Shown here: in pieces, positions 6,671-36,290 of the stretch | Numbering within the stretch: position 1 is the stretch's first letter | How the letters are laid out: each line of letters starts with the position of its first letter | Origin: Magnetococcales bacterium | Lineage (GTDB): Bacteria; Pseudomonadota; Magnetococcia; Magnetococcales; Magnetaquicoccaceae | NCBI GenBank assembly: GCA_015233035.1 | Contig: JADFYM010000007.1 | Location: 1 to 38,328 of the forward strand | Length of the DNA: 38,328 bases | Direction of reading: 5' to 3' | Position numbers and translations under genes: made by a program | Notes under the pieces: generated by a model | The model's database searches: none | Told to the model about the DNA's origin: nothing | The model's input: only the letters and a program-made list of their open reading frames with translations

Positions 6671-6906
6671 ACATCGATATTCACTCCAGCACGGGTATCG
6701 CCCTGGCCTCTCTGTTGGCCCTCTCCTGGCCCGCCGCCTACCTGATGAGTCGTATACATACGGGCCAAGGGAATCAGTGGGTTGACGTCCACCGCCCTGC
6801 CATGCGCAGCGATTGTTCTGGTGCGTCGTCGGCGCACCCGGTCAATGCCTTTCGCATGGGCATCAACCCAGACTATCCACCCTTTTCCGGGAAAATGGTG
6901 CCATGA
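6667..6906 (+). CDS. Coupled 79-residue membrane ORF between kdpF and kdpA, unknown
   Basis: Not a recognised family. One predicted helix near residues 9-28 (GIALASLLALSWPAAYLMS) is followed by a polar tail of about 50 residues. The case for a real gene is the arrangement: its ATG overlaps the kdpF stop (ATGA at 6667-6670) and its TGA overlaps the kdpA start (ATGA at 6903-6906), so it is coupled on both sides. It could be an extra Kdp subunit, or only a translational bridge to kdpA. The C-terminal half has no evident fold. Confidence 0.5.
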   Translation: MNIDIHSSTGIALASLLALSWPAAYLMSRIHTGQGNQWVDVHRPAMRSDCSGASSAHPVNAFRMGINPDYPPFSGKMVP

Positions 6907-8710
6907 CCATCAACGGCTATCTTCAGCTTATTTTCTATGTGGCAGCTTTGCTGCTGCTTGCCTGGCCTCTGGGCTTGTACATGGCCAAAATTTATGGGGA
7001 GGTACTCCCCGCCAGCGTGCGTTGGCTCTCCCCCGTGGAAGAAGCCTTTTACCGCTTGTGCGGCGTGCGGCACAGCGATGACATGTCCTGGACCCGGTAC
7101 GCCTTCGCGGTGCTGATTTTCAATCTGCTCGGTTTCCTGGCGGTGTACGCGCTGCAACGGCTTCAGTTATGGTTGCCGTTCAATCCCCAGGCCATGGCCA
7201 ATGTGACCCCGGACAGTTCCTTCAACACCGCCGTCAGTTTTGTCAGCAATACCAACTGGCAGGGCTATGGCGGCGAGTCAACCATGTCCTACCTGACCCA
7301 AATGCTGGGCCTGACCGTGCAAAATTTTGTCTCGGCGGCCACCGGCATGGCGGTGATGGCGGCCTTGATGCGGGCCTTCACCCGGCGGGAGGAGACCGGC
7401 ATCGGCAACTTCTGGATCGACATGACCCGTTCCACCCTCTACATCCTGCTGCCCATGAGCATCGTGTTGTCCCTGCTTCTCGTCAGCCAGGGGGTGCCGC
7501 AGACCCTCGCTCCCTACCAGACTGCGCAACTGATGCAGGAATTGGCCTATGACGATCCAGTCAACGGCCCCGATGGCCAGCCCCTCAAGGATGAAAAAGG
7601 GCAACCGGTCACCGAGAAAAAGACGACCAAGGAGCAATCCATTGCCCTGGGACCGGTAGCTTCGCAGGTGCCATCAAGCAATTGGGCACCAATGGCGGTG
7701 GTTTTTTCAATGCCAACTCCGCCCACCCCCTGGAAAATCCCACGCCCTTTGCCAACTTTCTGGAAATGCTCTCCATCCTGCTGATTTCGGCGGCCTTCTG
7801 CATCGCCTTCGGCCAGTTTGTCGGTGATTTGCGCCAGGGCAAGGCCATCCTGGCGGCCATGACGATTGTCTTTGTCGCCCTTCTGGCCCTTTGCGTCGGA
7901 GCGGAACAGTCCGGCAATCCGCTGTTCGAGCGGTTGGGGGTGGACACCCATGCCTCCAGTCAATCGTCCGGTGGCAACATGGAAGGCAAGGAGACCCGGT
8001 TTGGCATCGTCAATTCGGCCATCTGGGCCACGGCCACCACCGCCGCTTCCAATGGCTCGGTCAATGCCATGCACGATTCCTTCACTCCCCTGGGTGGACT
8101 GGTGCCCATGTGGATGATCCAACTGGGCGAGGTGATCTATGGCGGGGTCGGTTGCGGGTTGTATGGCATGATCATCTTTGCCCTGGTGGCGGTCTTTGTC
8201 GCCGGTCTGATGATCGGTCGCACCCCGGAATATCTGGGCAAAAAGATCGGGGCCTTCGAGATCCAGATGTCGGCGGTCGCGGTCATCACCCCCTGTCTGG
8301 TGGTGCTGGTCGGCACGGCGGTCGCGGTGGTGAGTGAGGCAGGACTGGCGGGTATCGCCAATCCCGGTATTCATGGCTTTTCGGAGATTCTCTATGCCTT
8401 CTCTTCGGCGGGCAACAATAACGGCAGTGCCTTTGGCGGTCTGTCGGTCAACACCCCGTTCTACAACACCATGCTGGGGTTCGCCATGCTCCTGTCCCGC
8501 TATTGGCTGATCATACCGGCCTTGGCCATCGCCGGTTCCGTGGCATCCAAAAAGACTGTCCCCTCCTCGGCCGGAACCCTGCCCACCCATACCCCCCTGT
8601 TTGTGGCCCTGCTGATCGGGACGGTGATTATTGTCGGTGCATTGACTTTTCTGCCCGCGCTCGCCCTCGGTCCGATTGTGGAACACGTACATATGATCAA
8701 CGGACATTGA
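6903..8710 (+). pseudogene. kdpA: KdpA, potassium-binding subunit of Kdp ATPase, with one-base frameshift
   Basis: Channel-like subunit that selects and translocates potassium in KdpFABC. The first part reads MTINGYLQLIFYVAALLLL through NTNWQGYGGE and QNFVSAATGMAV to LGPVASQV; the second resumes in another frame with [15 protein letters not shown] and runs to the TGA at 8710. The break is near 7668-7672. The family expects GPVASQ-x-AIKxLGTNGGG, and adding one G to GTGCCATCAAG (giving GTGGCCATC) restores it exactly. Repaired, the protein would have about 602 residues against 557 in E. coli, with intact motifs on both sides. Either a sequencing or assembly error, or a recent real lesion; the intact kdpB, kdpC, kdpD and kdpE favour an error or a very young mutation. 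The start overlaps the previous stop. Confidence 0.9.
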
Positions 8711-8724
8711 CGGGAGCAACGCAT

Positions 8725-10788
8725 ATGCATGGACAATTATCGCTGTTCGACCCCACCATCCTCAAAGAGGCCATTTGGGATTCGTTCCGGCGTCTTTCAC
8801 CCCAGTATCAGATCCGCAACCCGGTCATGTTTGTGGTCTGGTTGAGCAGTTTGTTGACCTCCGGGCTGTATATCCAGGCCGTCATGGGCCATGGTGAGGC
8901 CCCGACCTGGTTTATCCTGGCGGTCACCTTGTGGTTGTGGTTCACCTTGCTGTTTGCCAATTTTGCCGAGGCGATGGCCGAAGGGCGGGGCAAGGCCCAG
9001 GCCGCTGCCCTGAAGGGGCTGCGCAAGACGGTGCTGGCCAAAAAACTCAAAGAGCCGCGTCCCGATGCCAAATGGGAGAGCGTCGCCTCGGAAACCCTGC
9101 GCAAGGGGGATGTGGTGCTGGTTGCCACCGGCGATATTATTCCCGGCGATGGGGAAATCATCGAAGGGGTGGCCTCGGTGGATGAATCGGCCATCACCGG
9201 CGAATCGGCCCCGGTGATCCGGGAATCAGGCGGCGATTTTTCCGGCGTCACCGGCGGAACCCGCATTCTCTCCGACTGGCTGGTGGTGCGGATCATGGCC
9301 AATCCGGGGGAAACCTTTCTGGACCGCATGATCAGCATGGTGGAGGGGGCCAAACGGCAAAAAACCCCCAACGAGATTGCCCTGACCATTCTGTTGGTCA
9401 AGCTGACCCTCATCTTTTTGCTGGCCACCGTTACCCTGCTGCCCTTCTCGATTTATGGGGTCGAGTCGGCCAAGGCCGGCTCCCCGGTCACGGTGACGGT
9501 ACTGGTGGCTTTGCTGGTTTGCCTGATTCCCACCACCATTGGCGGTCTGCTCTCTGCCATCGGGGTGGCGGGCATGAGTCGCATGATGGGGAAAAATGTC
9601 TTGGCCACCTCCGGCAAGGCGGTGGAAGCCGCCGGTGATGTGGATGTATTGCTGCTGGACAAGACCGGTACCATCACCCTGGGCAACCGGCAGGCCTCCT
9701 TGTTTGCCCCGGCTCAGGGGGTGGGCGAAAAGGTGTTGGCCGAAGCGGCCCTGCTGGCCTCGCTGGCGGACGAAACCCCGGAAGGGCGGTCCATCGTCAC
9801 TTTGGCCAAGGAACTGTTGCATCAACGCGGTCGGGACATTCATGCCGATGGGGCAACCTTTGTCCATTTTACCGCCCAGACCCGCATGAGCGGGATCGAT
9901 TTCCAGGGCCGTTCCATTCGCAAGGGGGCCTCGGAGGCCGTGCACCGCTATGTGGAAAGCATCGGCGGCAGTTGGCCCCTGGCCATTCAGACCCTGGTGG
10001 ATGAAATCGCCCGCCGAGGCTCCACCCCGCTGGTGGTGGCCGAGGGCAATCGGGTTCTGGGGGCGGTGGAGTTGAAGGATATTGTCAAGGGAGGGATCAA
10101 GGAGCGTTTCGCCGAGTTGCGCCGCATGGGGATCAAGACGGTCATGATTACCGGGGACAATCGCCTGACCGCAGCGGCCATTGCCGCCGAAGCCGGGGTG
10201 GACGATTTTCTGGCCGAGGCCACCCCGGAAGCCAAGCTCAAACTGATCCGTCAATATCAGCAGGAGGGGCGATTGGTGGCCATGACCGGGGACGGCACCA
10301 ATGATGCCCCGGCTTTGGCCCAGGCCGATGTGGCGGTGGCCATGAACAGTGGCACCCAGGCCGCCAAAGAGGCGGGCAATATGGTGGACCTGGACTCCAA
10401 CCCCACCAAGCTGATCGAGGTGGTGGAGACCGGCAAGCAAATGTTGATGACGCGGGGTGCGTTGACCACCTTTTCCATCGCCAACGATGTGGCCAAATAT
10501 TTTGCCATCATCCCGGCGGCCTTTGCGGTCACCTATCCCGACTTGAATGTGTTCAACATCATGGGACTGGCCACGCCGGCCTCGGCCATTTTGTCGGCGG
10601 TCATCTTCAATGCCTTGATCATCATCGCTCTGATTCCCCTGGCCTTGAAAGGGGTGGAATATCGACCGGTCGGGGCCGACGCTTTGTTGCGGCGCAATCT
10701 GCTGGTCTATGGGTTGGGCGGATTGGTGGTGCCCTTTATCGGCATCAAGGCCATTGATCTTATTCTGGTTGTTCTGCATCTTACCTGA
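8725..10788 (+). CDS. kdpB: KdpB, catalytic P-type ATPase subunit
   Basis: Hydrolyses ATP to power high-affinity potassium uptake. The 687 residues (E. coli 682) contain [17 protein letters not shown], the actuator motif TGES with Ser161 at the position of the inhibitory phosphoserine 162 of E. coli, the phosphorylation motif DKTGT with Asp312, [14 protein letters not shown] and the hinge [21 protein letters not shown]. Several membrane helices flank these domains. The start at 8725 has GGGAG upstream and lies 14 bp after the kdpA stop; the frame is open further upstream but only as a shadow of kdpA. All catalytic motifs are intact. Confidence 0.97.
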
Positions 10789-10798
10789 GGTAACTGAA

Positions 10799-11377
10799 AT
10801 GATCAAAGAACTGAAACCCGCTCTGTTGATGCTGATCCTGATGACGGTGCTGACCGGTGTTCTCTATCCGGCCTTGGTCACCAGCCTGGCACAACTGTTT
10901 TTTCCGCAGCAGTCTGCTGGCAGCTTGTTGCATGTCAACGGCCAGGTGGTTGGCTCTGAGTTGATCGGGCAGACATTTTCGGAGCCGCGTTATTTTTGGG
11001 GTCGTATTTCGGCCACCTCGCCCATGACTTACAATGCGGCGTCGTCCGGTGGCTCCAATCTGGGACCGCTCAACCCAGCCTTGAAGGATGCGGTGGATGC
11101 GCGGATTGCCGCCCTCAAGGAGAGCGATCCGACGCAAAAGTTGCCCATTCCGGTGGATCTGGTGACCTCGTCGGCCAGCGGGTTGGATCCGCACATCTCG
11201 CCCGCCGCCGCCTTGTGGCAGGTGCCACGGGTGGCACGGGAGCGGGGGTTGTCGGAACAGATGGTGCGGGATCTGGTGGCACAACATACGGCGGGACGTG
11301 CGTTCGGTTTTCTGGGCGAGGCCGGGGTCAATGTGTTGACTTTGAATCTGGCTCTGGATCAGAAGAAGGTTCGTTAG
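10799..11377 (+). CDS. kdpC: KdpC subunit of the Kdp potassium ATPase
   Basis: Assembly/affinity subunit of KdpFABC, anchored by one N-terminal helix ([19 protein letters not shown]) with a periplasmic domain. At 192 residues it matches the family size. Family motifs visible: [42 protein letters not shown] and [16 protein letters not shown] near the end. The ATG at 10799 follows kdpB by 10 bp, with TGAGG as a weak ribosome site. A class-1 repeat fragment begins almost at its stop codon and could act as terminator or attenuator before the porin and kdpDE. Confidence 0.96.
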
Positions 11378-11914: not shown

Positions 11915-12781
11915 ATGCATACCAACAAAAAAGCCATACTCGTCGCCCTGCTGGGCGGCATGACCCTCCTGGCACCGGTCATCGGACTGGCCGAGGAGGC
12001 CAAGGCACCCGACCCGGCCCCCACCCCCACCAACACGTTCACCCCGAACATTGGCGTGGTCAACAACTATATATTCCGTGGCATGACGCAAACCTGGAAT
12101 CAACCGGCCCTGCAAGGCGGTCTCGATTACAGCCATGTCGATGGCTGGTATGCCGGAACCTGGCTTTCCAACATCAGCGACCGGGAATATGCCGGTGGCA
12201 CGGTGGAATGGGATATCTATGGCGGCTATAACGGCAAATTTTCGCAAGAGGACTGGACCTGGACCGTCGGATTGGCGGGTACGGTCTATCCAGGGGCCGA
12301 TTACCACAAATCCCCGTTCTATCCCAAAAGCCAGACTTTCAACAACCTTGAAGTCAACGGCGGCTTTGGTTACAAATGGATCGCATTCAAGCTTTCCGCT
12401 GCGTTGACAGATTATTTCGGAGCCAACACCAACACCGGTTATACCTCCGATACCCGGTGGAGCACCTATGCGGACCTGACCGCCACCGTGCCTTTGCCGG
12501 AAGAGACGTTCGGCCAGAATGTCACCCTGCCCCTGCATATCGGACATCTCCATTATACGGCCAACCTGAAAGCACCGAGCAATGGTACCACCGACCCCGA
12601 CTATACCGATTACAAAATCGGCATTGCCAAAGGGTTTGACTATGACATCAGCCTCGCCCTGTCCCTGACGTATGCGGACAATGACGATGTGTATGGCCAT
12701 GTCCAATCGATGAAAAGCAGCAAGGATTTTGTCGAAATGGGCGGGGCCCATGTCATTCTCTCGCTGACCAAGACGTTTTGA
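11915..12781 (+). CDS. TorF-family putative outer-membrane porin (Gcw_chp)
   Basis: 288 residues with a Sec signal peptide (MHTNKKAILVALLGGMTLL, cut near GLAEEA). The domain start is typical of the family: NIGVVNNYIFRGMTQTWNQP followed by GGLDYSH and WYAGTWLSNI. Alternating aromatic strands and a final Phe (SLTKTF) mark an outer-membrane barrel. It lies between kdpC and kdpD on the same strand, 34 bp before kdpD, so it probably shares their control and may help potassium cross the outer membrane; that role is inference. The ATG at 11915 is the only good start; upstream GGAACCAAAAATC gives a weak ribosome site. Confidence 0.88.
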   Translation: MHTNKKAILVALLGGMTLLAPVIGLAEEAKAPDPAPTPTNTFTPNIGVVNNYIFRGMTQTWNQPALQGGLDYSHVDGWYAGTWLSNISDREYAGGTVEWDIYGGYNGKFSQEDWTWTVGLAGTVYPGADYHKSPFYPKSQTFNNLEVNGGFGYKWIAFKLSAALTDYFGANTNTGYTSDTRWSTYADLTATVPLPEETFGQNVTLPLHIGHLHYTANLKAPSNGTTDPDYTDYKIGIAKGFDYDISLALSLTYADNDDVYGHVQSMKSSKDFVEMGGAHVILSLTKTF

Positions 12782-12815: not shown

Positions 12816-15506
12816 ATGACTCCTGATTCCCTGCACACCCGACCCGATCCCGATGTCATTCTCGCCCAGTTGACAGCCGAGACATCCCGCGCGGATCGGG
12901 GCAAGTTGAAGGTCTTTTTTGGAGCCTGCCCCGGGGTGGGCAAGACCTATGCGATGTTGACCGCCGCCCAGGTCTTGCACACCCAGGGGATGGATGTGGT
13001 GGCTGGCGTGGTGGAGACCCACGGCCGCCGCGAGACCGCCGAGTTGATGCAACGGCTCGACGTGCTGCCCCGCTGCCGGATCGAATACAAGGGTCACATC
13101 CTGGAGGAATTCGATCTGGATGCGGCCTTGCGTCGCAAACCCCAACTGATCCTGATGGATGAACTGGCCCATTCCAACGCCCCCGGCTCCCGCCATCCCA
13201 AACGGTGGCAGGATATTATGGAGTTGCTGGGCGCAGGCATCGACGTGTACACCACCGTCAACGTCCAGCATGTCGAAAGCCTGGTCGATGTCATCGGCAA
13301 GATTACCGGTGTGCGCGTGCTGGAGCGGGTGCCCGACCATGTCATCGACCAGGCGGACGAAATGGTGCTGGTAGACCTGCCCCCCGAGGAGTTGCTGCAA
13401 CGACTGCGGGAGGGCAAGGTCTATATCTCCCATCAAGCGGAACGGGCCATGGAACATTTTTTCCGCAAGGGCAATCTGCTGGCCCTGCGGGAACTGGCGT
13501 TGCGCCGCACCGCCGACCGGGTGGATGGCGACGTGCGCGCCTGGCGACGGGAAAAATCGGTAACCACCGTCTGGCCGACCCGGGAATTGGTGCTGGTCTG
13601 CGTGGGACCGGGACCGGACAGTGAAAAACTGGTGCGTCGCGCCGCCCGCCGGGCCAACCAGACCGGCGCGCCCTGGCATGCCATCGCCATCGAGACACCG
13701 TCCATGCACAACCTGCCGGAAGCGGCCCGGGTGCGTGTTATCAACATTCTGAAATTGGCCCAGGAGATGGGCGCGAATACGGCCAACCTGTCCGGCCCGG
13801 ACCCCGTGGAGGTCGCCGTCGCCTACGCCCATGAACACAATCTGGGCACCCTGCTGGTGGGACGGGACCGCTATCGACGACTGCCCTGGCAACATGGTTT
13901 TGCCGAAAGGCTGGGTCGCCTGGCCCCGGACCTGGAACTCCTCCAGATAGCCCGTGAGGATGACGAACAGGAGACCACCAAGCCACTCCCCGCGCCCAAA
14001 TCCCGTGGCCCCACCGTCTGGCGTCCCCATCTGCTGTCACTGCTCAACGTCGCCCTGGCCACGATTGTGAGTACGCCGTTGCGTGATCATCTCGATTTGG
14101 CCAACATTGTCATGATTTTTCTGCTGGCCGTGGTCTTCACTGCCATCCGTTCGGGACGCGGGGCGGCCGTGCTGGCGGCGTTTCTCTCCGTGGCCGCCTT
14201 CGATTTTTTCTTTGTCCCGCCCCGCTTTTCGTTTGCCGTCTCGGACGTGCAATATCTGGTCACCTTCGCGGTCATGCTGACCGTGGCCCTGGTTGTGGGC
14301 CAACTCACCGCCGGTCTGCGCTTCCAGGTTTTGACCGCCCGCAAACGGGAACGGCGGATTCAGGCCCTCTACGAAATGTCCCGCGATCTCTCCAGTGCCA
14401 TGCGGGTGGAACAGATTGTCGAGATCTGCCAACGTTTTATCAAACGGGGTTTCAATGCCTCGATGGCCGTCTTCGTCAATGGGCAGGAACGCCTCCAACT
14501 GGCCGACGGCTCGGCCAATCTCGGTGCCGTCGATCCGGGTATTGCCCAATGGAGCTTTGACCATGGCCAAAATGCCGGGTTGGGCACCGATACCCTGCCC
14601 TCGGCCCATGCTCTGTATGTCCCGCTCAAGGCTCCCACCCACCTGTGTGGGGTATTGGCCCTGGTGCCGGACGAGGCAACCTGGCAACTGCCGATGGAGC
14701 AACAGCAACTGCTCGACACCAGTGCCACCCTGATCGCCATCGCCATGGAACGGATCCACTATGTCGCCTTGGCCAAAGATGCCCAGGTCAGCATGGAATC
14801 CGAGCGTCTGCGCAACTCCCTGCTGTCTGCCATTTCGCACGATCTGCGTACCCCGTTGACGGTCATCACCGGTCTGGCCGAGGCCATGCAGATGGCCACG
14901 CCGACCTTGCCCGAACCCCATGCCGGTCTCGCCAAGGCCATACGGGACGAGGTATCGCATACCATCACCATGGTCAACAATCTGCTGGACATGGCCCGGA
15001 TGCAAATGGGCAACATTGTCTTGAACCGGGGCTGGCAGACACTGGAAGAGGTGATCGGCCTCTCCCTGAGCAATTGCGCGCCCCTGCTCACCCGTCATGT
15101 CGTGCGCGTCGAACTGGCCGCCGGGCTGCCCTTGCTGGAGTTGGACACCGGACTCATGGAGCGGGTGTTCAACAATTTTCTGGAAAACGCCGCCAAATAT
15201 ACCCCGCCGGGGAGCATCGTCACCATTGCCGCCTGCCAGGATGGGGCCTTTGTGAAAGTTTCGGTGAGCGATAACGGGCACGGTGTCCCGCCCGGCATGG
15301 AAAAAAAGTTGTTTGAAAAATTTACGCGGGGCAAGGTGGAATCCACCGTGGCCGGTTTTGGCTTGGGCCTGGCCATTGTGCGTACCATTGTCGAGGCCCA
15401 TGGCGGTTCGGTGTGGGCGGAAAGTCCACCCGAAGGGGGATCCCGCTTTGTCCTGCTCCTGCCCATAGGCAATCTGCCCGACATGCCGGAGGAAACCGAT
15501 GGCTGA
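12816..15506 (+). CDS. kdpD: KdpD, potassium/turgor sensor histidine kinase
   Basis: Membrane kinase that phosphorylates KdpE when potassium is scarce. The 896 residues carry the whole domain series: N-terminal KdpD domain with Walker A GACPGVGKT (36-44), MDELAHSNAPGSRHPKRWQD and VYTTVNVQHVESL; a Usp-like domain (about 250-370, LVGRDRYRR); four close membrane helices (about 405-500, IVMIFLLAVVFTAIRSG to ALVVGQLTAGL); a GAF-like domain (about 510-660); HisKA with SHDLRTPLTVI (His675); and HATPase_c with NFLENAAKYTPPG, SDNGHGVP and GFGLGLAI. It overlaps kdpE by 8 bp. Its membrane/GAF segment is repeated in the two proteins downstream. Confidence 0.97.
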   Translation: MTPDSLHTRPDPDVILAQLTAETSRADRGKLKVFFGACPGVGKTYAMLTAAQVLHTQGMDVVAGVVETHGRRETAELMQRLDVLPRCRIEYKGHILEEFDLDAALRRKPQLILMDELAHSNAPGSRHPKRWQDIMELLGAGIDVYTTVNVQHVESLVDVIGKITGVRVLERVPDHVIDQADEMVLVDLPPEELLQRLREGKVYISHQAERAMEHFFRKGNLLALRELALRRTADRVDGDVRAWRREKSVTTVWPTRELVLVCVGPGPDSEKLVRRAARRANQTGAPWHAIAIETPSMHNLPEAARVRVINILKLAQEMGANTANLSGPDPVEVAVAYAHEHNLGTLLVGRDRYRRLPWQHGFAERLGRLAPDLELLQIAREDDEQETTKPLPAPKSRGPTVWRPHLLSLLNVALATIVSTPLRDHLDLANIVMIFLLAVVFTAIRSGRGAAVLAAFLSVAAFDFFFVPPRFSFAVSDVQYLVTFAVMLTVALVVGQLTAGLRFQVLTARKRERRIQALYEMSRDLSSAMRVEQIVEICQRFIKRGFNASMAVFVNGQERLQLADGSANLGAVDPGIAQWSFDHGQNAGLGTDTLPSAHALYVPLKAPTHLCGVLALVPDEATWQLPMEQQQLLDTSATLIAIAMERIHYVALAKDAQVSMESERLRNSLLSAISHDLRTPLTVITGLAEAMQMATPTLPEPHAGLAKAIRDEVSHTITMVNNLLDMARMQMGNIVLNRGWQTLEEVIGLSLSNCAPLLTRHVVRVELAAGLPLLELDTGLMERVFNNFLENAAKYTPPGSIVTIAACQDGAFVKVSVSDNGHGVPPGMEKKLFEKFTRGKVESTVAGFGLGLAIVRTIVEAHGGSVWAESPPEGGSRFVLLLPIGNLPDMPEETDG

Positions 15507-16203
15507 CACCCAACACGCCACCCCATTGATCGTCCTCATTGAGGATGAACCCCAGATTCGCCGTTTTGTCCGGGCCGCCCTGGAGGCGGAACAGTATGCG
15601 GTGGCGGAAGCGGAGACAGGCACCCAAGGGTTGATGGATGTCGGCACCCGGCGGCCTGATCTGCTCATCGTGGATCTGGGTCTGCCGGACATGGATGGCA
15701 TCGATGTCATCCAGGATATCCGTTCGTGGTCCAATCTGCCCATCCTGATTCTTTCCGCCCGGACCAGCGAGGCGCACAAGGTCAAGGCTCTGGATGTGGG
15801 GGCCGACGATTATCTGACCAAGCCCTTTGGCATCCCGGAACTGCTGGCCCGGGTGCGCGCCCTGCTGCGCCGCTCGGCCCGTGCCCATACGGACGATCTG
15901 CCCGTGGTCCGGTTCGGGGAGGTGGAGGTCAATCCGCTGCAACGCACGGTGACCCGCAACGGGGAAGCCGTCCATCTGACCGCCATCGAGTATCGTCTGC
16001 TGATGCAACTGATCACCAACGCCGAACGGGTGATGACCCACAGCACCCTGATCCGGGAAGTCTGGGGACCGCATCATGCCGACAAAATTCATTATCTGCG
16101 GGTTTACATGTCCAACCTGCGCCACAAGCTGGAAGCGGATCCCAACGCTCCCCGCTATATCCTGACCGCATCCGGGGTGGGCTATCGGCTGGTTTTGGCG
16201 TGA
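15499..16203 (+). CDS. kdpE: KdpE, OmpR/PhoB-type response regulator
   Basis: Transcription activator of the kdp operon. It has 234 residues: receiver domain with acidic pair E15-D16, phosphoacceptor Asp59 in IVDLGLPDMDG, and Lys in YLTKPFGIPELLARV; then a winged-helix domain ending TASGVGYRLVL with RVYMSNLRHKLE. The ATG at 15499 lies inside the end of kdpD and its TGA overlaps the GTG start of the next kinase, so kdpD, kdpE and the hybrid kinase are translationally coupled. The T-rich palindromic regions at 6387 and 2569 are candidate binding sites. Confidence 0.96.
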   Translation: MADTQHATPLIVLIEDEPQIRRFVRAALEAEQYAVAEAETGTQGLMDVGTRRPDLLIVDLGLPDMDGIDVIQDIRSWSNLPILILSARTSEAHKVKALDVGADDYLTKPFGIPELLARVRALLRRSARAHTDDLPVVRFGEVEVNPLQRTVTRNGEAVHLTAIEYRLLMQLITNAERVMTHSTLIREVWGPHHADKIHYLRVYMSNLRHKLEADPNAPRYILTASGVGYRLVLA

Positions 16204-18005
16204 AACCGGTGCTCACCTGCCCTGCCATCCTGTTGGTCTTGGCCCTGGTCATCGGTCAACTGACCGCCGTACTGCTCTATTATGCCTATTCGGCAAAACG
16301 ACGGGAACAGCGCACGCGCTCCCTGTACGACATGTCCCGCGAGCTTTCCGGTGCCCTGAGCGTGGAACAAACCGTTGATATTTGCCAACGCTTTATCAAA
16401 CATGGGTTTGATGCCGCTGCCGTTGTCTGGCTGCCCAGAGAAAACGGGCACCTGCAATTGGCCACCGGGTTGGCCGACCTGGCGTCGGTCGATGCCAGTA
16501 TTGCCCAATGGAGCTTTGAGCATGGGCAGGTCGCCGGTTTGGGCACCGGGACCCTCCCTGCCGCTCAAGCCCTGTACGTACCGCTCAAAGCCCCCACCCG
16601 CCTTTGCGGGGTGTTGGTCCTGGTGCCAACCGGAGCGTTGTCCGCCGAGCAACAGCAATGGCTGGACACCTGTGCCACCCTGATCGCCATCACCCTGGAG
16701 CGGATCCATTGTGTCATCCTGGCCCGGGATGCCCAGGTCAGCATGACGGCGGAACGTCTGCGCCATACCCTGTTGCAACAGGCCAAAGAGCAGGCGGAAC
16801 AAGTGGCCAAAGCCAAAAGCACCTTTCTGGCCACCATGAGCCACGAAATTCGCACCCCGTTGCACGCCATTCTGGGCATGTTGGAGTTGTTGCATGAGGC
16901 TCCCCTGGCCGATCACCAGCGGGAACAGGTACACATCGCCTTTGCCGCCAGCCGGGGTTTGCTGGCCTTGATCAATGAGATTCTGGATTATTCCAAGATG
17001 GAGGCGGGCGCGTTCACCCTGGACCAGGTGGATTTTAATCTGCGCACCCTGATGAACGAAGTCGCCCTCGTCATGACGCCGTTGGCACAGCAAAAAAAAA
17101 TTGAACTCCGCATCGTCCTGCCAACGGAACAGCATACGGCGGTCAGCGGCGATCCCAACTGTTTGCGGGCGATCCTGGTCAATCTGCTCAACAATGCCAT
17201 CAAGTTTACCCCGGAAGGCGGCCTGGTGACCTGTCATGGCGGACCGGTGGGCCGGAATGAGACAGGTCTGATCGAGTGGCGGTTTGAGGTACGGGATACC
17301 GGCATCGGCATTGCGGAGGCCCAGCGGACCGCCATCTTTGCGCCCTTCCTCCAGGGGGACAAAACGACCACCCGCCAATACGGGGGCACCGGGCTGGGTC
17401 TGGCGATCACCCAACGCTTTATCCACATGATGGGCGGTGACATTCAGGTGGAGGCCAATTCCCATGCCGCCTCCGGTAGTGCTTTTTATTTTACCATCCG
17501 GTTGTTGCTCCGGGCCGAGGCGGCCACCTTGGGTGAACCGGAGCGGTTGGCAGACGGCACCCCGCCTGTCCAACCCGCTTATGCCGCCGATATTCTGGTA
17601 GTGGACGATCAGACCGTCAATCTGAAGGTGACGTGCGCCATGCTGGTCAACCAGGGGTGCGACCCCAAACGTATTGTCACCGCAACCAACGGTCAGCAGG
17701 CGGTGGAACAGTTTCAAAACGGTCGCTTTCACCTGGTTTTGATGGACTGCCAAATGCCGGTCATGGATGGCTGCCAGGCCACCGGTGCCATACGAGCCTG
17801 GGAACGCCACCACGGGCAGGCGTTGGTGCCCGTGGTGGCCTTTACCGCCGATGTGACCACCGAAAGCCGCCACCGGATACAAGTCGCCGAGATGAGTGAT
17901 TGTTTGACCAAACCGATCACCCTGGCTGATTTGCGCGCCATCTTGAGAAAACATATTGCCCACACCGACACCGCCACGCCATCCCACTCAAACAAGGTCA
18001 CATAA
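16200..18005 (+). CDS. Hybrid histidine kinase with KdpD-derived GAF sensor and receiver
   Basis: 601 residues from a GTG that overlaps the kdpE stop (GTGA at 16200-16203). Domains: one membrane helix (about 5-27, ending LVIGQLTAVLLYYAY, like the fourth helix of KdpD); a GAF-like segment of about 150 residues closely matching KdpD (LYDMSREL, QRFIKHGF, ALYVPLKAPTRLCGVLVLV); HisKA with His215 in [15 protein letters not shown]; HATPase_c with NLLNNAIKFTPEG, DTGIGIA and GGTGLGLAI; and a C-terminal receiver with Asp516 in [13 protein letters not shown]. It lacks the KdpD ATP-binding/Usp part and three helices. No HPt domain is attached, so the phosphate must pass elsewhere. It looks like a partial duplication of kdpD fused to a hybrid kinase core. 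Confidence 0.92.
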   Translation: MKPVLTCPAILLVLALVIGQLTAVLLYYAYSAKRREQRTRSLYDMSRELSGALSVEQTVDICQRFIKHGFDAAAVVWLPRENGHLQLATGLADLASVDASIAQWSFEHGQVAGLGTGTLPAAQALYVPLKAPTRLCGVLVLVPTGALSAEQQQWLDTCATLIAITLERIHCVILARDAQVSMTAERLRHTLLQQAKEQAEQVAKAKSTFLATMSHEIRTPLHAILGMLELLHEAPLADHQREQVHIAFAASRGLLALINEILDYSKMEAGAFTLDQVDFNLRTLMNEVALVMTPLAQQKKIELRIVLPTEQHTAVSGDPNCLRAILVNLLNNAIKFTPEGGLVTCHGGPVGRNETGLIEWRFEVRDTGIGIAEAQRTAIFAPFLQGDKTTTRQYGGTGLGLAITQRFIHMMGGDIQVEANSHAASGSAFYFTIRLLLRAEAATLGEPERLADGTPPVQPAYAADILVVDDQTVNLKVTCAMLVNQGCDPKRIVTATNGQQAVEQFQNGRFHLVLMDCQMPVMDGCQATGAIRAWERHHGQALVPVVAFTADVTTESRHRIQVAEMSDCLTKPITLADLRAILRKHIAHTDTATPSHSNKVT

Positions 18006-18100
18006 AACAAGTAATAGCATTTAATGCGCCACAAGAACACCCTTAAAAAAATAATGCGCGAAAAAAGAGTTTAACAGGATTTTCAAGCCAGAGAGGATGA

Positions 18101-18223
18101 AATTGCAAAATGCACAAGAAGATGAAAAAACGTCATTCCCGCGCAGGCGGGAATCCAGGAGTTCCCGATGGTTAGCTGGATTCCCGCTTTCGCGGGAATG
18201 ACGGAATCGGGCATTCTGCAATT
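18101..18223. mobile_element. MITE-like element with AATTGCAAAATGC ends
   Basis: AATTGCAAAATGC at 18101-18113 matches the reverse complement of 18211-18223 at 12 of 13 positions. Between them, CGTCATTCCCGCGCAGGCGG and its complement form a second inverted pair around about 30 bp. No ORF. Its ends differ from those of the TACTG elements, so it may be another family or a class-3 repeat in a palindromic site. It separates the hybrid kinase from the EAL gene. Confidence 0.6.
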
Positions 18224-18238
18224 ACTCCAGAGGAAATG

Positions 18239-20368
18239 ATGGAACTGCTCTATCTCATCGGCTTGATGGTCGTCACACCAGTATGTGTCTACGCCAGCGC
18301 GGTGCTGGCCTCTCACGTGCGTGGTTTGCTGGTGATCGCCAAAAGACCCGGCTGCACGATGGCGGGTTGGCAGTTGCTCCACTTGGCTCAGGATGCTTAC
18401 CCCACAGCCCCCGATACCCATAGGTATCGTCGTTACGGGCGGGTGGTGCTCACGGTGGCCTTGGTGACACTCTTCATTCTGCTGTTGCAGAATCTGCTCG
18501 ATTCAGCCAGTACGGTCATGCTGTTTTTGCTGGCGGTGGTCTTTACGGCCATCCGTTCGGGTCGCAAAGCGGCCGTGCTGGCGGCTTTGCTCTCTGCCGC
18601 CTCCTGCAACTTTTTTTTCATATCGCCACGTTTTGCGTTCGTGGTCCCGGAGATCCACCATCTGGTCGCCTTCGCCGTCATGCTGACCGTGGCCCTGGTC
18701 GTGGGCCAACTGACCGCCGGTTTGCGCTTCCAGTTGTTGACGACGCGGCACCGGGAACAACGGATGCGGGCACTGTATGAAATGGCCAAAGATCTCTCCA
18801 GTGCGCTGTGCGTGGAACAGATTGTCGCAATTGGCCGACAGTTTATCGAACAGGGTTTCCATGCCTCGGTCGCCGTCTTTGTGCCCGGCGAACAGCAGCG
18901 ACTCCAACTGGCCGCAGGATCGTCCGCCTTGCCCGCCACCGACCTGGGTATTGTCCATTGGTGTTTTGACCATGGACAAAATGCCAGCCTGGGCACCAAT
19001 ACGCTCCCCTCGGCCCCTGCCCTCTATGTGCCGCTCAAGGCTCCGACCCATCTGTGTGGCGTGTTGGTCGTGCGGCCTGCATCCAGCGGGGCATTTCCCT
19101 TGGAGCAACAGCAGTTACTGGATACCGGAGCCACCCTGATCGCCATTGCCCTGGAACGGCTCCATTTTGTGATCCTGGCCCAGGATGCCCAGGTAAACAT
19201 GGCCTCCGAATGTGTGCGCAATACCCTGCTCCAGGAGAGCGAAACCTGGGTGCGCTCCATCCTGGAAGCCGCCCCGGACGCCATCCTCGCCCTGGATGCC
19301 AGAGGCTATATCGACTCCATCAATGCCGCCGGAGAAAACCTGTTCGGCTACTATCCGGGCAGCTTGTTTGGCAAGCATATCAGCCAGTTATTGCCCACCT
19401 TCCCCCTGTCGGACAACCAAAGTGGTGCGGAATGGCCCGCCCAATGGCTGCAAGATCCCAACCTCTCCGGTACCACCCTGGAAGTGGACGGGGTGTGTCA
19501 TGATGCCGGTTATTTTCCGGTGGAAGTCTCCGTCAGCCGTTACAGTGCCAAGGGAAACACGGCCCGCTTTACGCTGATCGTCAAGGATATTACCGAACGC
19601 AAACAGGCCAAAACCGCCTTGGCCAAGGCCTACGACGAGTTGGAACAACGGGTGCAGGAACGGACCCGGGAGTTGGAACAGACCAATGCCAAACTGTTTG
19701 AAGAGATTGACGAACGCATTCGGGCCGAACAGGGGCTGCAACTGGCTTCCAAGGTGTTTGAAACCGCCACCGAGGGATTTCTGATCACGGATGCCCGCGT
19801 CAGGATTATCAAGACCAATGCCTCTTTCACAAAAATCACCGGCTACAAGGTTGCCGTCAACCTGTCGGCCCTGCAATTTCAACAGGGCGATTTGGTGGCG
19901 TTGGTCCAAGCCATTCTGGAGGAGACCGGTCTGCCCGCCGCCGCTCTGGAGATGGAAATTACCGAGAGCATGGTCATGGGGCATGTGGAAAAATCCATCG
20001 AACGCATGCGCGGTCTGAAGGCATTGGGGTTGACCCTGGCCATGGATGATTTTGGCACCGGCTATTCTTCACTCAACCATCTCAAGCAGTTTCCCATCGA
20101 CACCCTTAAAATTGACCAATCGTTTATTCGGGATTTGGGCCGTGCGCCAGGGGATCTGGCCATCGTGTTGGCCATCCTCTCCCTGGGGCAGGCACTGAAC
20201 CTCAACATTGTGGCCGAAGGGGTGGAGACCCAGGAACATGTCACCCTGCTCAAAGAGAAAGGCTGTCATGAAATACAAGGCTATTTTTTCAGCAAGCCCC
20301 TCCCGGCGCACAAGATGGAGGAACTTTTGCTGGAGGACCGGAGTCTGGAAAAACTTTTATCAAAATGA
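18239..20368 (+). CDS. KdpF/KdpD-like membrane sensor with PAS and truncated EAL domain
   Basis: About 709 residues. The first 24 (MELLYLIGLMVVTPVCVY...) match the local KdpF at 14 of 24 positions. Then come the four KdpD-type helices (about 80-170, including VMLFLLAVVFTAIRSGRKAAV and VALVVGQLTAGLRFQ), the KdpD-like GAF region (about 180-330), a PAS domain (SILEAAPDAILALDARG to DITERKQ), a coiled coil, and the start of a second PAS (FETATEGFLITDARV). That PAS breaks at FTKITGY and jumps directly to VAVNLSALQFQQ, deep inside an EAL domain; the later motifs EITES, DDFGTGYSSL, LKIDQSFI, VAEGVET and QGYFFSKP remain. The EAL signature, any GGDEF and the rest of PAS2 are missing in frame, so c-di-GMP hydrolysis is doubtful. 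ATG at 18239 fits AGAGGA better than the one at 18236. Confidence 0.88.
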   Translation: MELLYLIGLMVVTPVCVYASAVLASHVRGLLVIAKRPGCTMAGWQLLHLAQDAYPTAPDTHRYRRYGRVVLTVALVTLFILLLQNLLDSASTVMLFLLAVVFTAIRSGRKAAVLAALLSAASCNFFFISPRFAFVVPEIHHLVAFAVMLTVALVVGQLTAGLRFQLLTTRHREQRMRALYEMAKDLSSALCVEQIVAIGRQFIEQGFHASVAVFVPGEQQRLQLAAGSSALPATDLGIVHWCFDHGQNASLGTNTLPSAPALYVPLKAPTHLCGVLVVRPASSGAFPLEQQQLLDTGATLIAIALERLHFVILAQDAQVNMASECVRNTLLQESETWVRSILEAAPDAILALDARGYIDSINAAGENLFGYYPGSLFGKHISQLLPTFPLSDNQSGAEWPAQWLQDPNLSGTTLEVDGVCHDAGYFPVEVSVSRYSAKGNTARFTLIVKDITERKQAKTALAKAYDELEQRVQERTRELEQTNAKLFEEIDERIRAEQGLQLASKVFETATEGFLITDARVRIIKTNASFTKITGYKVAVNLSALQFQQGDLVALVQAILEETGLPAAALEMEITESMVMGHVEKSIERMRGLKALGLTLAMDDFGTGYSSLNHLKQFPIDTLKIDQSFIRDLGRAPGDLAIVLAILSLGQALNLNIVAEGVETQEHVTLLKEKGCHEIQGYFFSKPLPAHKMEELLLEDRSLEKLLSK

Positions 20369-20510: not shown

Positions 20511-20942
20511 ATGCACATCATCGCCAAACCGGTACTGATAGAGTTCTGGACGACACATCCCGATGCCGCCATCCCGTTACAGGCGTGGTATCGCACGATG
20601 GAGAGCGCGGTTTTTGTTGATTTCTCAGACTTGAAAGCCACTTTCGGCAGTGCCGATTATGTGCCGCCAAAGTTTACAGTGTTCAACATCGGAGGCAACA
20701 AGTACCGCTTGATTGCGGTGATTCACTACAACCGGCACAAGGTCTATATCCGTGCAGTTCTGACCCACGCTGAATATATACTGCGCACGGTCACAATTGA
20801 CGAGTATCGTCATTCCCGCGCAGGCGGGAATCCAGGAGGTCCAACAGGCCAAATGGATTCCCGCCTGCGCGGGAATGACGGAACAGGAAGTGTCACTTAT
20901 GCCCGCGCACAGTATACCTGCGGTGACTGGAGGAGGGATTGA
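20511..20942 (+). CDS. higB: HigB-family toxin (mRNA interferase) with in-frame MITE insertion
   Basis: RelE/HigB-type ribosome-dependent RNase. Family motifs: MHIIAKPVLIEFWTTHPDA, PLQAWY, FTVFNIGGNKYRLIAVIHYN and VYIRAVLTHAEY. Typical members have about 97 residues; this one has 143. The excess is exactly 46 codons contributed by the 136-bp element at 20779-20914 plus a 2-bp TA duplication; without it the end would read HAEYTCGDWRRD, as expected for the family. The insertion contains no stop in this frame, so a toxin with a 46-residue insert near the C-terminus is predicted. Activity is uncertain. Upstream of higA with 2 bp between stop and antitoxin start. Confidence 0.85.
   Translation: MHIIAKPVLIEFWTTHPDAAIPLQAWYRTMESAVFVDFSDLKATFGSADYVPPKFTVFNIGGNKYRLIAVIHYNRHKVYIRAVLTHAEYILRTVTIDEYRHSRAGGNPGGPTGQMDSRLRGNDGTGSVTYARAQYTCGDWRRD
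20779..20914. mobile_element. MITE-like element inside higB, 136 bp
   Basis: Starts TACTGCGCACGGTCACAATT and ends, inverted, TACTGTGCGCGGGCATA, with TA on both sides (20777-20778 and 20915-20916). The interior has two inverted GTCATTCCCGCG arms around about 35 bp. Inner flanks (ATTGACGAGTATCGTCATTC, ACAGGAAGTGTC) are the same as in the 91-bp element at 11652, so the two are one family. Total gain 138 bp, a multiple of three. Confidence 0.82.
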
Positions 20943-20944
20943 CC

Positions 20945-21367
20945 ATGGAATGCGCACTCGTAGCACCCGAACCACAGGCCATACTGAAGGCGTGGCTGCC
21001 GTTCAAACAGCTCGTTGGGGTGACATCTGTTCGTACCAGCCAGGATTATGCGCAGGCGTGCGCGTCCATTGACAGGCTGCTTGCGGAAATGGGCGACGAC
21101 GAAGAACACCCTTTGGCGGAATGGCTTGATCTGCTTTCCGATCAGGTGGAGGCCTATGAGAAAGAAAACTTCCCGATTCCACCAGTCGCACCGCACGCGG
21201 TGTTGCGCTTCCTGATGGATCAGCACGGGCTCAAGCAGGACGACCTGCAAGACTGTGCGCCGCAAGGCCGCATCTCTGATATTCTGAACGGCAAACGCAC
21301 AATCAGCAAAGCAATTGCCAAACGGCTGGCACACCGCTTCCATGTCCGTGCGGACATGTTCCTGTAG
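20945..21367 (+). CDS. higA: HigA-family antitoxin, XRE-type
   Basis: 140 residues. The N-terminal part is a helical domain of about 80 residues (YAQACASIDRLLAEMG, EHPLAEWLDLLSDQVEAYE) and the C-terminal part a helix-turn-helix (VLRFLMDQHGLKQDDL to GRISDILNGKRTISKAIAK), the layout of HigA proteins that neutralise HigB and repress their operon. ATG at 20945 has AGGAGG at good spacing, and begins 2 bp after the higB stop; a TTG at 20939 in the same frame is less likely. The ribosome site lies inside the 3' end of higB, downstream of the MITE, so antitoxin translation should be unaffected by the insertion. Confidence 0.92.
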   Translation: MECALVAPEPQAILKAWLPFKQLVGVTSVRTSQDYAQACASIDRLLAEMGDDEEHPLAEWLDLLSDQVEAYEKENFPIPPVAPHAVLRFLMDQHGLKQDDLQDCAPQGRISDILNGKRTISKAIAKRLAHRFHVRADMFL

Positions 21368-21657: not shown

Positions 21658-21704
21658 GTGGTTCTGTCCTGGTACAGAGAGGTTCCCCGCGATCCCCGCG
21701 TCAC

Positions 21705-24700
21705 TCACAACACAATCTGCAAAGCCTCCGCCATCCCCCGCAACGCCACCAAGGCCCCCTCAAACTCAAACTCGGCCACCTGTTTCAGCATCTCTTTGCC
21801 GAGGACGCCCTGCCCCACTGCCTGCAACGGCCCGCTCAACCGTTCGGCCAGTTCGCTGGCATCGGCATCCCCATCCGCCAACAAAAGACCCAGACGGCGC
21901 AATTCCCCCGCCAGGACCGCCTGGTCCACCGCCAGCGGCGGCCGGTCAGCGGCCACCGGCAGAGGCGCGGGCGGTTCCCCCAGCGCGGCCACAATGCGTT
22001 CCCGCAGACTGGCCTGTTCCGCCGCCATGGCTTGCAAGGCCGCTGCCAGCCCGGCGGTTTCACCCCGCTGCAACAGCCCCTCGACCTGTCCCGCCCACTC
22101 GGCCAGCACCGTGGCCCCGATGTTGCCCGCCAGCCCCTTGATCGTGTGCGCCTCACGCACGGCACTTTCCAGGGCGTTGTTGGCCACCGCCGTGCGCAGG
22201 CGCACCATCATCTCACCCTGGGTGGCCGCAAAACGGTGGATCAACTTGCGCAACGGTTCGACGTTCCCCCCCACCCGCGCCAGTGCCCGCGCCAGGTCCA
22301 GACCGGCAATGGCGGGCAGATCGGCCAGCGCGGCCGCTTTGGGCAGCGGAAGCGAACAGACCACCGTCTCCTGGGGCCGGATCCAGCGCGCCAGAATGCA
22401 AAAAAGCTGGTCCATATCCATCGGCTTGGTCATGTGGTCGTTCATGCCAGCGGCGAGACATTTTTCCCGGTCCCCCGCCATGGCGTTGGCCGTCATGGCC
22501 AGAATGGGCAGGTCGGCAAACCGTCCATCCTGGCGAATGGTGCGCGTCGCCTCAAAACCATCCATCACCGGCATCTGACAATCCATCAAAACGCCGTCAT
22601 AGGCCCCCTGGGCCACCTTCGCCACCGCCTCGGCCCCATCGCTGGCCACATCCACCCGCACCCCCGCATTCTGCAACAGGTCCACCACCAGTTCCTGATT
22701 CAGCAGATTGTCTTCCACCAGCAACAGATGGGTTCCCCGCAACTTCTGGGCGGCCTCCTGACAGGAGGCCCGTTTTTCCTGCTGCCGGGTAAACGGCACC
22801 ACCACCTTGCCCAACGCACGCAGAATGCTGTCCAGCAGAGTGGAGGGGCTGACCGGTTTGACCAACAAACCATCGATGGGTACGTCGACTGCCCGTTGCA
22901 ACAGCTCCTCCCGGCTGTAGGCAGTCACCATGATAAACGCACGGGTCGCGGCCAATGCACTGTCGGCACGAATGCGCTGGATGGTCTCCACCCCATCCTC
23001 GTGCGGCATCAGCCAATCCATCAGCACCAACGGGTAGGGTTTTTGTTCCCCGACCGCCTGCGCCAGGGCCGCGATGGCCGCGCGACCACTGCTGACCGTG
23101 GTCGGGTCAAACCGAAGCGATACCAGCATGTTGTGCAAAATTTCCCGCGCACTGGCATTGTCATCCACCACCAGAACACGCACCCCCTGCACCGCCTCGG
23201 CATTGATCGCCAACGACCGCTGGGTGTGCTGTTTGCCAAACCGGGCGGTAAAATAAAAGGTGCTGCCCTGGCCCGGCACACTCTCCACCCCGATTGCACC
23301 ACCCATCTGCTCCACCAGACGCTTGCTGATGGTCAGTCCCAGCCCGGTCCCCCCATATTTGCGGGTGGTCGAGGCATCGGCCTGGGTGAAGGCACCAAAC
23401 AGCGTATCGCACTGATCCGGGGTCAGGCCAATACCGGTATCCTTGACCACAAAGCGCAGTTGCACCGTCTCTGGTTCATCGGCCAGCAAATGGATCCCGA
23501 CCGTGACCTCACCCTGCTCGGTAAACTTGATCGCATTGTTGACCAGATTGATGAGCACCTGCCCCAGCCGCAACCCATCCCCCACCAGGGCCGTCGGCAC
23601 CTCGGCCCCCATGTCAAACAACAGTTCCAGCCCCTGGTCCTGCGCCTTGATCACCGACAAATCGGCCAGATGCTCCAGGACATCTTCCAGGTAAAAATCG
23701 GTCTGCTCAAACGGCATCTTGCCCGCCTCGATCTTGGAAAAATCGAGAATATCGTTGATGATGCCGAGCAAATTTTTGGCCGCGCCGGCCATCTTTTCGA
23801 TATAACTGCGCTGTCTGGCATCCAGGTCGGTTTGCAACACCAGATGCGCCATGCCGATCAAGGCATTCATCGGGGTGCGAATCTCATGGCTCATATTGGC
23901 CAGAAAGGCACTCTTGGCCTGGGTGGCCTCCTCGGCCACCTCCTTGGCCAGGCGCAAGGCGGCTTCGGTCTGCTTGCGCTTGGTAATGTCGCGAAACACG
24001 GCGACCGTGCCCAGCAATTTGCCCTCCTTGCGCACCGGGGTCGTATCATATTCCACCGGAAAGGAGGAGCCATCTTTGCGCCAGAAAACCTCATCGTCCA
24101 CCCGACGCATCACCCCATCCCGGGCGGTCTGGTACATGTGGCACTGTTCGCGGGGATAGGGCGTCCCATCCGCGTAGGCATAATGGACCAGGGCGTGCAT
24201 GGCGGCGGCCATCAGTTCCGCCTCGGTATATCTCAGCATCCGCGCCGCTGCCGGATTGACGAAGGTCGTGCGCCCTTCGGTATCCAGCCCCCAGATCCCC
24301 TCATTCACCGAACCCAGAATCAGGCGCACCCGCTCTTCCGATTGCGCCATGATCGCCTGGACCTCCTCCAGTTCGTCACGCCGGGCCAGCAATTGCTGCT
24401 CGGAAGCGGCCAGGGCCTGCGCCTGTGCCTGCGTTTGCGTCAGCAACTCCCGCGTGGCCACATGACCGGACAAAATCTGCATCTTGGCGGCAATGACCGG
24501 CAACAGGCTCTCCAGCAAGCCCTGTTGCCGGTCGTCGAGAGCCTCCAACGCGCCCACCTCCAGCACGGCCAGCACCTGGTCACGCTCCACAATGGGCAGG
24601 ATCCGCAGATGGCGCACGGCCACCACCCCCAGGCCAAACTTTACCCCGATGGGTGACTCCGTCGGCCACGACAAGGCAATGGGTTGCCGGTCCACCGCTG

Positions 24701-25718
24701 CCTGGCCCACCAACCCCTGTCCCCAGGCAAAACCGGTCGCATGAATGGCATCATCGCAGCCATAGCCCCCCACCCGACACAGTTCGGTCCGCCCGGTATT
24801 GGCCACATACAGCGCGACATAGACCAGACCCAGCATGGGGGCCAGACGGGCGGCCAGGGCATCGCCAAATTCGGCCCAGGAGGTGGCCCTCAACAATACC
24901 TGATCCACCTCCGCCTGGGCCTGCTTGATCTGGCGTTGCCGCTCGATCTCCTCGCTGGCCAGCCGATAGCGGTCCAGGGAGCGGGCCAGTTCCCCCATCT
25001 CCGTGCAGTCCCGCTCGCGGCCAAAGCGCACAGGACGGTCGCCGGCCAGCAGCCTCTGGGTCTGGAGCGTCAGCAAGGTGACCGGGGTGACCAGCCTGCG
25101 CTGGTAAAAAAAGGTCAACGCACCGAGCATGGTGGCCGCATTCACCAGCAGGGCGACCAGGGCCACGTTCAACAACTCGCTCGCCTCTTCGCTCAGATCC
25201 TCCGCCTGCTGCGTCAACCGCCGCTCCATGGTTTGTTGGGCCTCGCTGACACGATCCGTCAGAGAGGCCTTGACTGTGCGATAATGGTCCCCGTAAAGCA
25301 GCCTATTGGCACCCTTGTCATCGCCTTGGCGGACCGCCTCGAAGGCCTGGGTTTCCACAGCAATCAGGGCCTCGGAGTGGGTCTTGGCTTTTTCGATAAG
25401 GATCAGTTCCTCCCGCGTGGCACCGGCCTCGCGCAGCATGGCCAGGGCGCGCTCCATCGACCTGGTCGTATTCCGTTCGGTCTGATACGCCTGGAGATAA
25501 CGCGCCTCACCCGTGGCCGCGTAGGCCAGGACCGCCTGGGTCAAGGTACCATCTCCCCGGAAAAACAGATGGATCGCATCCATCGTGGCGGTCCAGGTGG
25601 TGAAAGCCAGTCGGCGTTTTTCGAGATGGTGTACCGCCATCAGGGAGGTGACAATACTGATGCCGGACAAGACGAGGACGACCCATGTGATCAAACGGCT
25701 GGTACTGCTGATGCGCAT
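21705..25718 (-). CDS. Large hybrid sensor kinase: HAMP-GAF-PAS-HisKA-HATPase-REC-REC-HPt
   Basis: 1337 residues. Two helices (about 9-29 and 183-205) enclose a periplasmic helical sensor. They are followed by a HAMP linker ([14 protein letters not shown]), a GAF-like domain (about 265-415), a coiled coil, a PAS with [12 protein letters not shown], HisKA with His611 in [16 protein letters not shown], HATPase_c ([29 protein letters not shown]), receiver 1 (Asp901 in [12 protein letters not shown]), receiver 2 (Asp1046 in [12 protein letters not shown]) and an HPt domain (His1191 in [13 protein letters not shown]). All phosphorelay residues are present, so a full internal relay is possible, with an unknown final receiver. 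The start at 25718 has GGAG about 10 nt upstream. The REC/HD-GYP gene upstream on the same strand is a plausible partner. Confidence 0.93.
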
Positions 25719-25770
25719 GAAGCATAAACTCCGCAGTGGCTAAGGGTGGTCAGGAGCATTCCATTATATT

Positions 25771-26048
25771 GGCAGGGGTCCAGGGGGATTATCCCCCTGG
25801 TGGGGTCCAGGGGCAAAGCCCCTGGCGGGGCTCGGGGCAGAGCCCCGGCTCGGGACATCAAGGGGCTGTGGATCAAAAAATGACACAGTAGCAACACGTT
25901 GGTGGTTCAAACTCCAGGGTCTTGTTTTTCCGGGGCGAAGCACCCGGACCCCACCAGGGGCGTTGCCCCTGGACCCCACCGGGGGAGATAATCTCCCCCG
26001 GACCCCCATAAATAATAACAACTTTTCGCGATGTATATAACGGGATGG
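25771..26048 (-). repeat. Full-length class-1 repeat
   Basis: On the minus strand it begins CATCCCGTTATATACATCGC, continues with the AGATTATCT hairpin, CCAGGGGCAACGCCCCTGG and TGTTGCTACTGTG centre, and ends with CCAGGGGGATAATCCCCCTGG and CCCCTGCCAATAT, colinear with the copy at 3000. It fills the whole gap between two minus-strand genes and stops 1 bp short of the HD-GYP stop codon. Confidence 0.85.
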
Positions 26049-26049
26049 G

Positions 26050-28314: not shown

Positions 28315-28356
28315 CCCGCGCAGCGCAACATCGTTGACTCCGGAGGGGGAACCATC

Positions 28357-28878: not shown

Positions 28879-28885
28879 AAATTGT

Positions 28886-29490: not shown

Positions 29491-29500
29491 TGTCATGGCA

Positions 29501-31829: not shown

Positions 31830-31849
31830 CCGGCCTTGATCATCGTGGT

Positions 31850-31918: not shown

Positions 31919-31942
31919 TATGATCAAGCCCCATGATGCGCC

Positions 31943-36283: not shown

Positions 36284-36290
36284 GAACGAC

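Follow-up and report, generated by a model that had tools for sequence, protein, structure and literature searches.

In Escherichia coli KdpD, the sensing of K+ has been assigned to the transmembrane part of the protein (external K+) and to its GAF domain (internal K+) (PMC11018627, PMC5936718). Sensor segments resembling KdpD of this type (NCBIfam NF007793) recur in a potassium locus of an uncultured magnetotactic-type bacterium of the order Magnetococcales, which lies within the 38,328-nucleotide stretch of DNA analysed here (the window), and in a second such locus of the same genome bin. These sensor copies align end to end with KdpD over the tail of the USP domain, the four-helix DUF4118 unit and the GAF domain. 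Unlike KdpD, however, they are devoid of the KdpD_N (serine kinase) and USP domains and carry a new N-terminal helix, and they end in a hybrid kinase or a c-di-GMP-enzyme tail, whereas KdpD ends in the KdpD transmitter.

Comparable proteins occur elsewhere in the family and order. For example, a conserved cassette of the genus and family (L011, L063-L067, L070, L071) combines a Kup transporter with a short KdpD (USP-DUF4118-GAF-kinase) and an OmpR-type regulator; it resembles the sensor copies in placing DUF4118-GAF beside a K+ transporter without KdpD_N, but retains USP and a KdpD-type transmitter and has the OmpR-type regulator as partner. Similarly, the order contains DUF4118-PAS hybrid kinases with REC-Hpt (L077 11707-14826, L105), in which DUF4118 is joined to a hybrid kinase as it is here (the one in L077 adjoins a REC-GGDEF gene), although their DUF4118 is weak (35-43 bits) and a GAF domain was not found in them. 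The tail of the third protein described below, the EAL protein, shares ~55-63% (PAS part) and 68-76% (EAL part) identity with PAS-PAS-GGDEF-EAL enzymes of the family (L043-L050), from which the protein differs in its N-terminal sensor and in the absence of 350 residues that include GGDEF and the E-A-L motif. Signalling in potassium homeostasis is best known to involve c-di-AMP, not c-di-GMP, and none of the open-access titles and abstracts listed by our searches described the fusion of a KdpD sensor with a c-di-GMP enzyme.

Gene order in the window

A sequence-only reading of the window had placed three genes in one run, those for KdpD, a hybrid kinase and an EAL protein, and its coordinates were confirmed (Table 1): the genes follow one another on the plus strand, with kdpE between kdpD and the hybrid kinase (HK1). 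The KdpD of the window possesses KdpD_N, DUF4118, GAF, HisKA and HATPase domains, with kdpABC and kdpE adjacent, and scores 1106.9 against the NCBIfam KdpD equivalog, slightly below the cut-off of 1123. Its closest relative is the KdpD of genome G005 (84% protein identity), with which it also groups in DUF4118-GAF trees, and it should control kdp via KdpE. In kdpA, the reading frame is apparently broken, while the second copy keeps the frame at the corresponding site and up to the contig limit; the frameshift, seen in one assembly, may be an error or genuine decay. A scan for promoters and terminators gave a signal near chance level.

Table 1. Features of the kup-kdp locus in the window; positions are counted from its first nucleotide, and copy 2 is the second locus of the bin.
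Feature	Position	Strand	Remarks
kup, K+ transporter	3904-5910	-	Kup match; opens the duplicated kup-kdp block; 90.4% DNA identity to copy 2 (contig C230)
kdpA	6903-8707	+	frame broken near 7668 (CAGGTG_CC), apparent 1-nt deletion
kdpB	8503-10788	+	Pfam; 95.6% protein identity to copy 2
kdpC	10709-11377	+	Pfam KdpC
Gcw_chp protein, function unknown	11915-12781	+	Pfam; present in several family kdp operons (L053, L055, L056, L061)
kdpD, intact	12816-15506	+	Pfam: KdpD_N, USP, DUF4118 (14031-14348), GAF (14376-14780), HisKA, HATPase
kdpE	15499-16203	+	Pfam and NCBIfam; between kdpD and HK1
HK1, hybrid kinase	16200-18005	+	GTG start overlaps kdpE stop; KdpD helix 4, GAF (16332-16730), HisKA-HATPase-REC
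Deletion junction 1	16228/16229	+	former kdpE-HK1 intergenic sequence joined to helix 4 coding sequence; ~542 bp missing vs copy 2
Deletion junction 2	16776/16777	+	PAS domain absent vs copy 2, ~390 bp, in frame
REP-like palindrome	18126-18212		between HK1 and EAL gene; hairpin of -55 kcal/mol; repeats at 11793 and 20808
EAL-tailed protein	18236-20368	+	new N-terminal helix (18236-18340), DUF4118 (18434-18751), GAF (18782-19186)
EAL-tailed protein, tail	19274-20365	+	PAS1 (19274-19597), PAS2 stub (19748-19846), EAL remnant (19847-20365)
Deletion junction 3	19846/19847	+	350 codons missing; length the same in 8 intact relatives

Several other elements accompany this locus. The EAL gene is followed by a HigB-like toxin and HTH antitoxin pair (20511-21367), with a REP palindrome in the final part of the toxin ORF, and then by a hybrid kinase (GAF-PAS-HisKA-HATPase-REC-REC-Hpt) with a REC-HD-GYP gene (21705-27258). 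Genes for the large and small subunits of a [NiFe] hydrogenase are located at 31943-34670. A dispersed repeat of ~280 bp occurs at 3006-3288, 25770-26047 and 36006-36283, and at dozens of sites in the bin with 81-95% identity; its matches on both strands (it is palindromic) suggest that it is possibly a miniature mobile element.

A second kup-kdp locus in the same bin

The genome bin (4.53 Mb in 434 contigs) contains six DUF4118 proteins above the cut-off, compared with 0-4 in the other genomes searched, and it harbours a second kup-kdp locus (copy 2) spread over three other contigs, C230, C129 and C82. A further kup-kdpABC-gcw-kdpE-HK1 block lies on C230 and C129, and its kup-kdpABC part is 89-90% identical to the window at the DNA level; the nearest other species reaches 86%, which is below the figure between the two copies. 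In copy 2, kdpD is represented by two short scars (L010 3560-3720: a remnant of the P-loop region fused to the final ~90 bp of the gene), while HK1 is of full length and comprises the new N-terminal helix, USP tail, DUF4118, GAF, PAS, HisKA, HATPase and REC.

Contig C129 ends within an insertion sequence right after the C-terminus of HK1, and C82 starts within one. These insertion-sequence ends bear 27-bp inverted repeats (26/27) and are bordered by an identical 8-bp target duplication, CAATTTTC; the empty site obtained by joining the two contigs recreates the HK1 C-terminus HSNTVE and the leader AACAAGTAA[CT]AG as in the window. The element is multi-copy (L010 1-126, L009 1-124), with 16 ends in the bin, most of them at the edges of contigs, and its 126 bp in copy 2 are identical to ends on a set of contigs that includes some with host REPs. 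Beyond the joint, C82 encodes a hybrid kinase, HK2, which has the same N-terminus as the EAL protein of the window, a likeness that includes the ribosome-binding region, and whose output is HisKA-HATPase-REC-REC-Hpt; HK2 is therefore the positional partner of the EAL gene. The gene that follows HK2, translationally coupled to it by an ATGA overlap (L009, about 3971-5077), encodes a REC-HD-GYP protein, an HD-GYP regulator in which REC and the motifs HDMGK (HDxGK) and HHEKWDGSGYP (HHExxDGxGYP) are intact. The kinase and REC-HD-GYP pair at 21705-27258 of the window is related to the HK2 tail (45% identity) and its HD-GYP partner (55%). As judged from the architectures, the third gene of the two loci is thus one 'decapitated KdpD' sensor with different tails, both pointing to c-di-GMP breakdown.

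Within the bin, the remainder of the window (21700-38328) has no second copy, save short dispersed repeats and one 72% match of ~600 bp, and the duplication is therefore local. The copy 2 contigs have a lower GC3 (0.61-0.68 vs 0.69-0.75) and no host REP elements were found on C230, C129 or C82, so a horizontal origin or a co-binned relative is possible for copy 2. A co-binned strain, for which GC3 was also compared, is the less likely source: apart from those matches the rest of the window is unduplicated, and the insertion-sequence ends are exactly shared with contigs that bear host repeats. Copy 2 is likely to come from the same genome as the window.

Sensor segments and outputs

The three proteins of the window had been read as carrying the same GAF-like segment, and alignment at both levels bears this out: protein identities are 67.4% (KdpD-HK1), 67.9% (KdpD-EAL protein) and 59.1% (HK1-EAL protein), and the corresponding DNA identities 73.0%, 74.9% and 69.7%. 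DUF4118 of KdpD and of the EAL protein is 65.7% identical in protein and 74.6% in DNA sequence, and against the NCBIfam KdpD model the EAL protein aligns over positions 405-669 (235 bits) and HK1 over 481-881. On these alignments the likeness among the three is homology, not chance. The segments of HK1 and the EAL protein are similarly close to the window KdpD and to the nearest KdpDs of other family species, and both proteins are without KdpD_N and USP domains. In the DUF4118-GAF trees the fusion proteins cluster with modest support only (89/97 and 94/93), and a GAF-only tree places the EAL protein elsewhere, apart from this cluster.

The four KdpD helices ascribed to the EAL protein are indeed present, together with an additional N-terminal one. 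The EAL protein, C129 HK1 and C82 HK2 have a common N-terminus followed by the KdpD USP tail, DUF4118 and GAF, the last two complete in all of them, while the window HK1 retains one helix and GAF. The claim that proteins with different outputs have the KdpD sensor region in common stands, except that the hybrid kinase of the window has helix 4 and GAF in place of the full sensor. Conservation within DUF4118 was compared at 38 positions at which 18 other KdpDs of the order show no variation at all. Of these positions, 10/38 are changed in the EAL protein, including some in and beside the short loop that precedes helix 4, compared with 2/38 in C129 HK1 and 0/38 in C82 HK2 (Fisher test, EAL protein vs C82 HK2: p = 0.001), and the EAL copy of the window is therefore the altered one. 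A response to K+ appears doubtful for the window EAL protein, and plausible for C129 HK1 and C82 HK2.

The first codons of HK1 correspond to sequence that is non-coding after kdpE in copy 2; the window reads GTGAAACCGGTGCTCACCTGCCCTGCCAT and then continues within helix 4. HK1 possesses only the last helix and GAF because a deletion removed helices 1-3 from the gene. PAS and the four helices are both present in the copy 2 HK1 (L010), of which the window HK1 is a deletion derivative without either. All hybrid-kinase motifs are nonetheless present in the window HK1 (HisKA H-box, N and G boxes, receiver D and K) and dN/dS against the copy 2 partner is 0.16-0.26, so that it may still work in a phosphorelay without a membrane sensor. 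Phosphotransfer by HK1 thus may still be possible, while sensing via the membrane unit would be impossible.

The outputs had been named as a kinase, a HisKA-HATPase-REC hybrid and an EAL domain. The first two were recovered, whereas the EAL domain consists of only the last ~170 residues and is without the E-A-L motif. The EAL protein has an in-frame gap of 350 residues at Y537/K538, which takes in the last part of PAS2, the entire GGDEF domain and the start of EAL with that motif, a segment that 8/8 close relatives possess at exactly this length. What is left of EAL begins with the VNLS strand, and its alignment with solved EAL structures opens only near residue 122 of a 286-residue construct; the glutamate of the E-A-L motif and the complete barrel, which characterise a phosphodiesterase, are absent. 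Having neither GGDEF nor the active-site start of EAL, the protein is therefore probably a dead or dying enzyme, and probably inactive as a phosphodiesterase. The remnant keeps the active-site residues N, E, DD, K and E (positions 542, 574, 604-605, 625 and 661), with dN/dS near 0.1 and dN comparable to intact relatives; since it is uneroded, the loss is recent, or the remnant is useful, or the gap is an assembly error. A scan of genome contigs gave only two matches to the EAL end, which pointed to the Magnetococcales. A further apparently truncated EAL, in L084, was rejected because it is a fragment at the edge of a contig; a REC-PAS-GGDEF gene follows it.

Usefulness of the remnant would mean that it has been repurposed as a non-catalytic binding or scaffold module, maintained by selection and controlled by the KdpD-like sensor, which would fit the low dN/dS and the intact ligand residues. 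We consider this improbable, given that the start of the barrel is missing, whereas the degenerate non-catalytic EAL proteins known to us retain the whole barrel. Moreover, 4/75 otherwise invariant positions are changed in the remnant, against 0-2 in intact close relatives, and a shallow AlphaFold model (3 sequences, mean pLDDT 67) has a TM score of only 0.3 to EAL structures, a value of low confidence.

All three deletions in the window, like the frameshift in kdpA, are known from a single assembly. If the 350-codon gap, and perhaps also the gaps in HK1 and the frameshift, were assembly or sequencing errors, the true gene would be DUF4118-GAF-PAS-PAS-GGDEF-EAL; the fragmented state of the bin, the uneroded remnant and a kdpA that is off by one base agree with such an explanation. 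It is nevertheless an unlikely one: the junctions possess just a few bases of similarity and no long repeat that could mislead an assembler, and the frame is maintained at the gaps in the HK1 PAS and in EAL.

The sequence-only reading had also proposed a common K+ input to KdpD, HK1 and the EAL protein, to be broadcast to transcription, to a second phosphorelay and to c-di-GMP-type signalling. The transmembrane-GAF homology common to the three, the complete kinase and receiver motifs and low dN/dS of HK1, and the overlap of its GTG start with the kdpE stop would accord with such a broadcast. However, HK1 has lost the four-helix unit, the sensor of the EAL protein is altered and its output is without the catalytic motif, and a strong hairpin separates the EAL gene from HK1; we give the proposal little credence, mainly because two of the three genes are truncated.

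Origin of the locus and its implications

In other Magnetococcales, ~15 kdp loci continue for 1.3 kb or more past kdpE, and none of these has a DUF4118-GAF gene beside kdpDE on the same strand; one of them (L077) has, near kdpDE, a kinase in convergent orientation whose DUF4118 is weak. Likewise, the new N-terminus had no match in any other of the 48 genomes of the order that were searched. The tandem order was thus absent from the other genomes examined, but it has an equivalent in the second locus of the same bin, and the arrangement of kdpDE with sensor fusions appears limited to this lineage as far as searched. In another family genome, kdpD is followed by a tandem pair of KdpE-like regulators (L053 8747-10282). 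Genes of c-di-GMP signalling adjoin the kdp loci of L062 and L077; since such genes abound in these genomes, we do not claim an enrichment.

The locus is best, and quite probably, explained by a lineage-specific duplication of the KdpD sensor with swapping of outputs, followed by decay in the window copy. In the order of events that we infer, an ancestor of this Magnetococcales lineage would have acquired additional sensor genes downstream of kdpDE: a copy of KdpD would have shed its N-terminal domains, keeping the last USP strand, DUF4118 and GAF and gaining a new N-terminal helix, and the sensor thus freed would have been fused to other tails. The block kup-kdpABC-gcw-kdpD-kdpE-HK1-third gene would then have been duplicated, or acquired from a relative, to give the two copies in the bin. 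Subsequently, kdpD would have been retained in the window while HK1 and the EAL tail were trimmed, and in copy 2 kdpD would have been lost to a scar while the sensor-bearing HK1 and HK2 were retained.

Fusion of a KdpD sensor to hybrid kinases and to a c-di-GMP enzyme would give a direct route from K+ to c-di-GMP. Such a link is better supported in copy 2 than in the window, because the sensors of copy 2 are intact and one of them is coupled to REC-HD-GYP. Tentatively, and as a possibility that we hold well below the duplication and output swapping outlined above, a mobile KdpD-derived K+ sensor may have been wired to c-di-GMP breakdown at the same position in both copies of the potassium locus, once by direct fusion to GGDEF-EAL (broken in the window) and once through a phosphorelay kinase with REC-HD-GYP. 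If true, the level of c-di-GMP would be set directly by K+ supply. At one position of the locus the outputs have been exchanged, and its two copies have decayed in opposite ways; the natural domain swaps in it could help to ask which part of KdpD reads K+.
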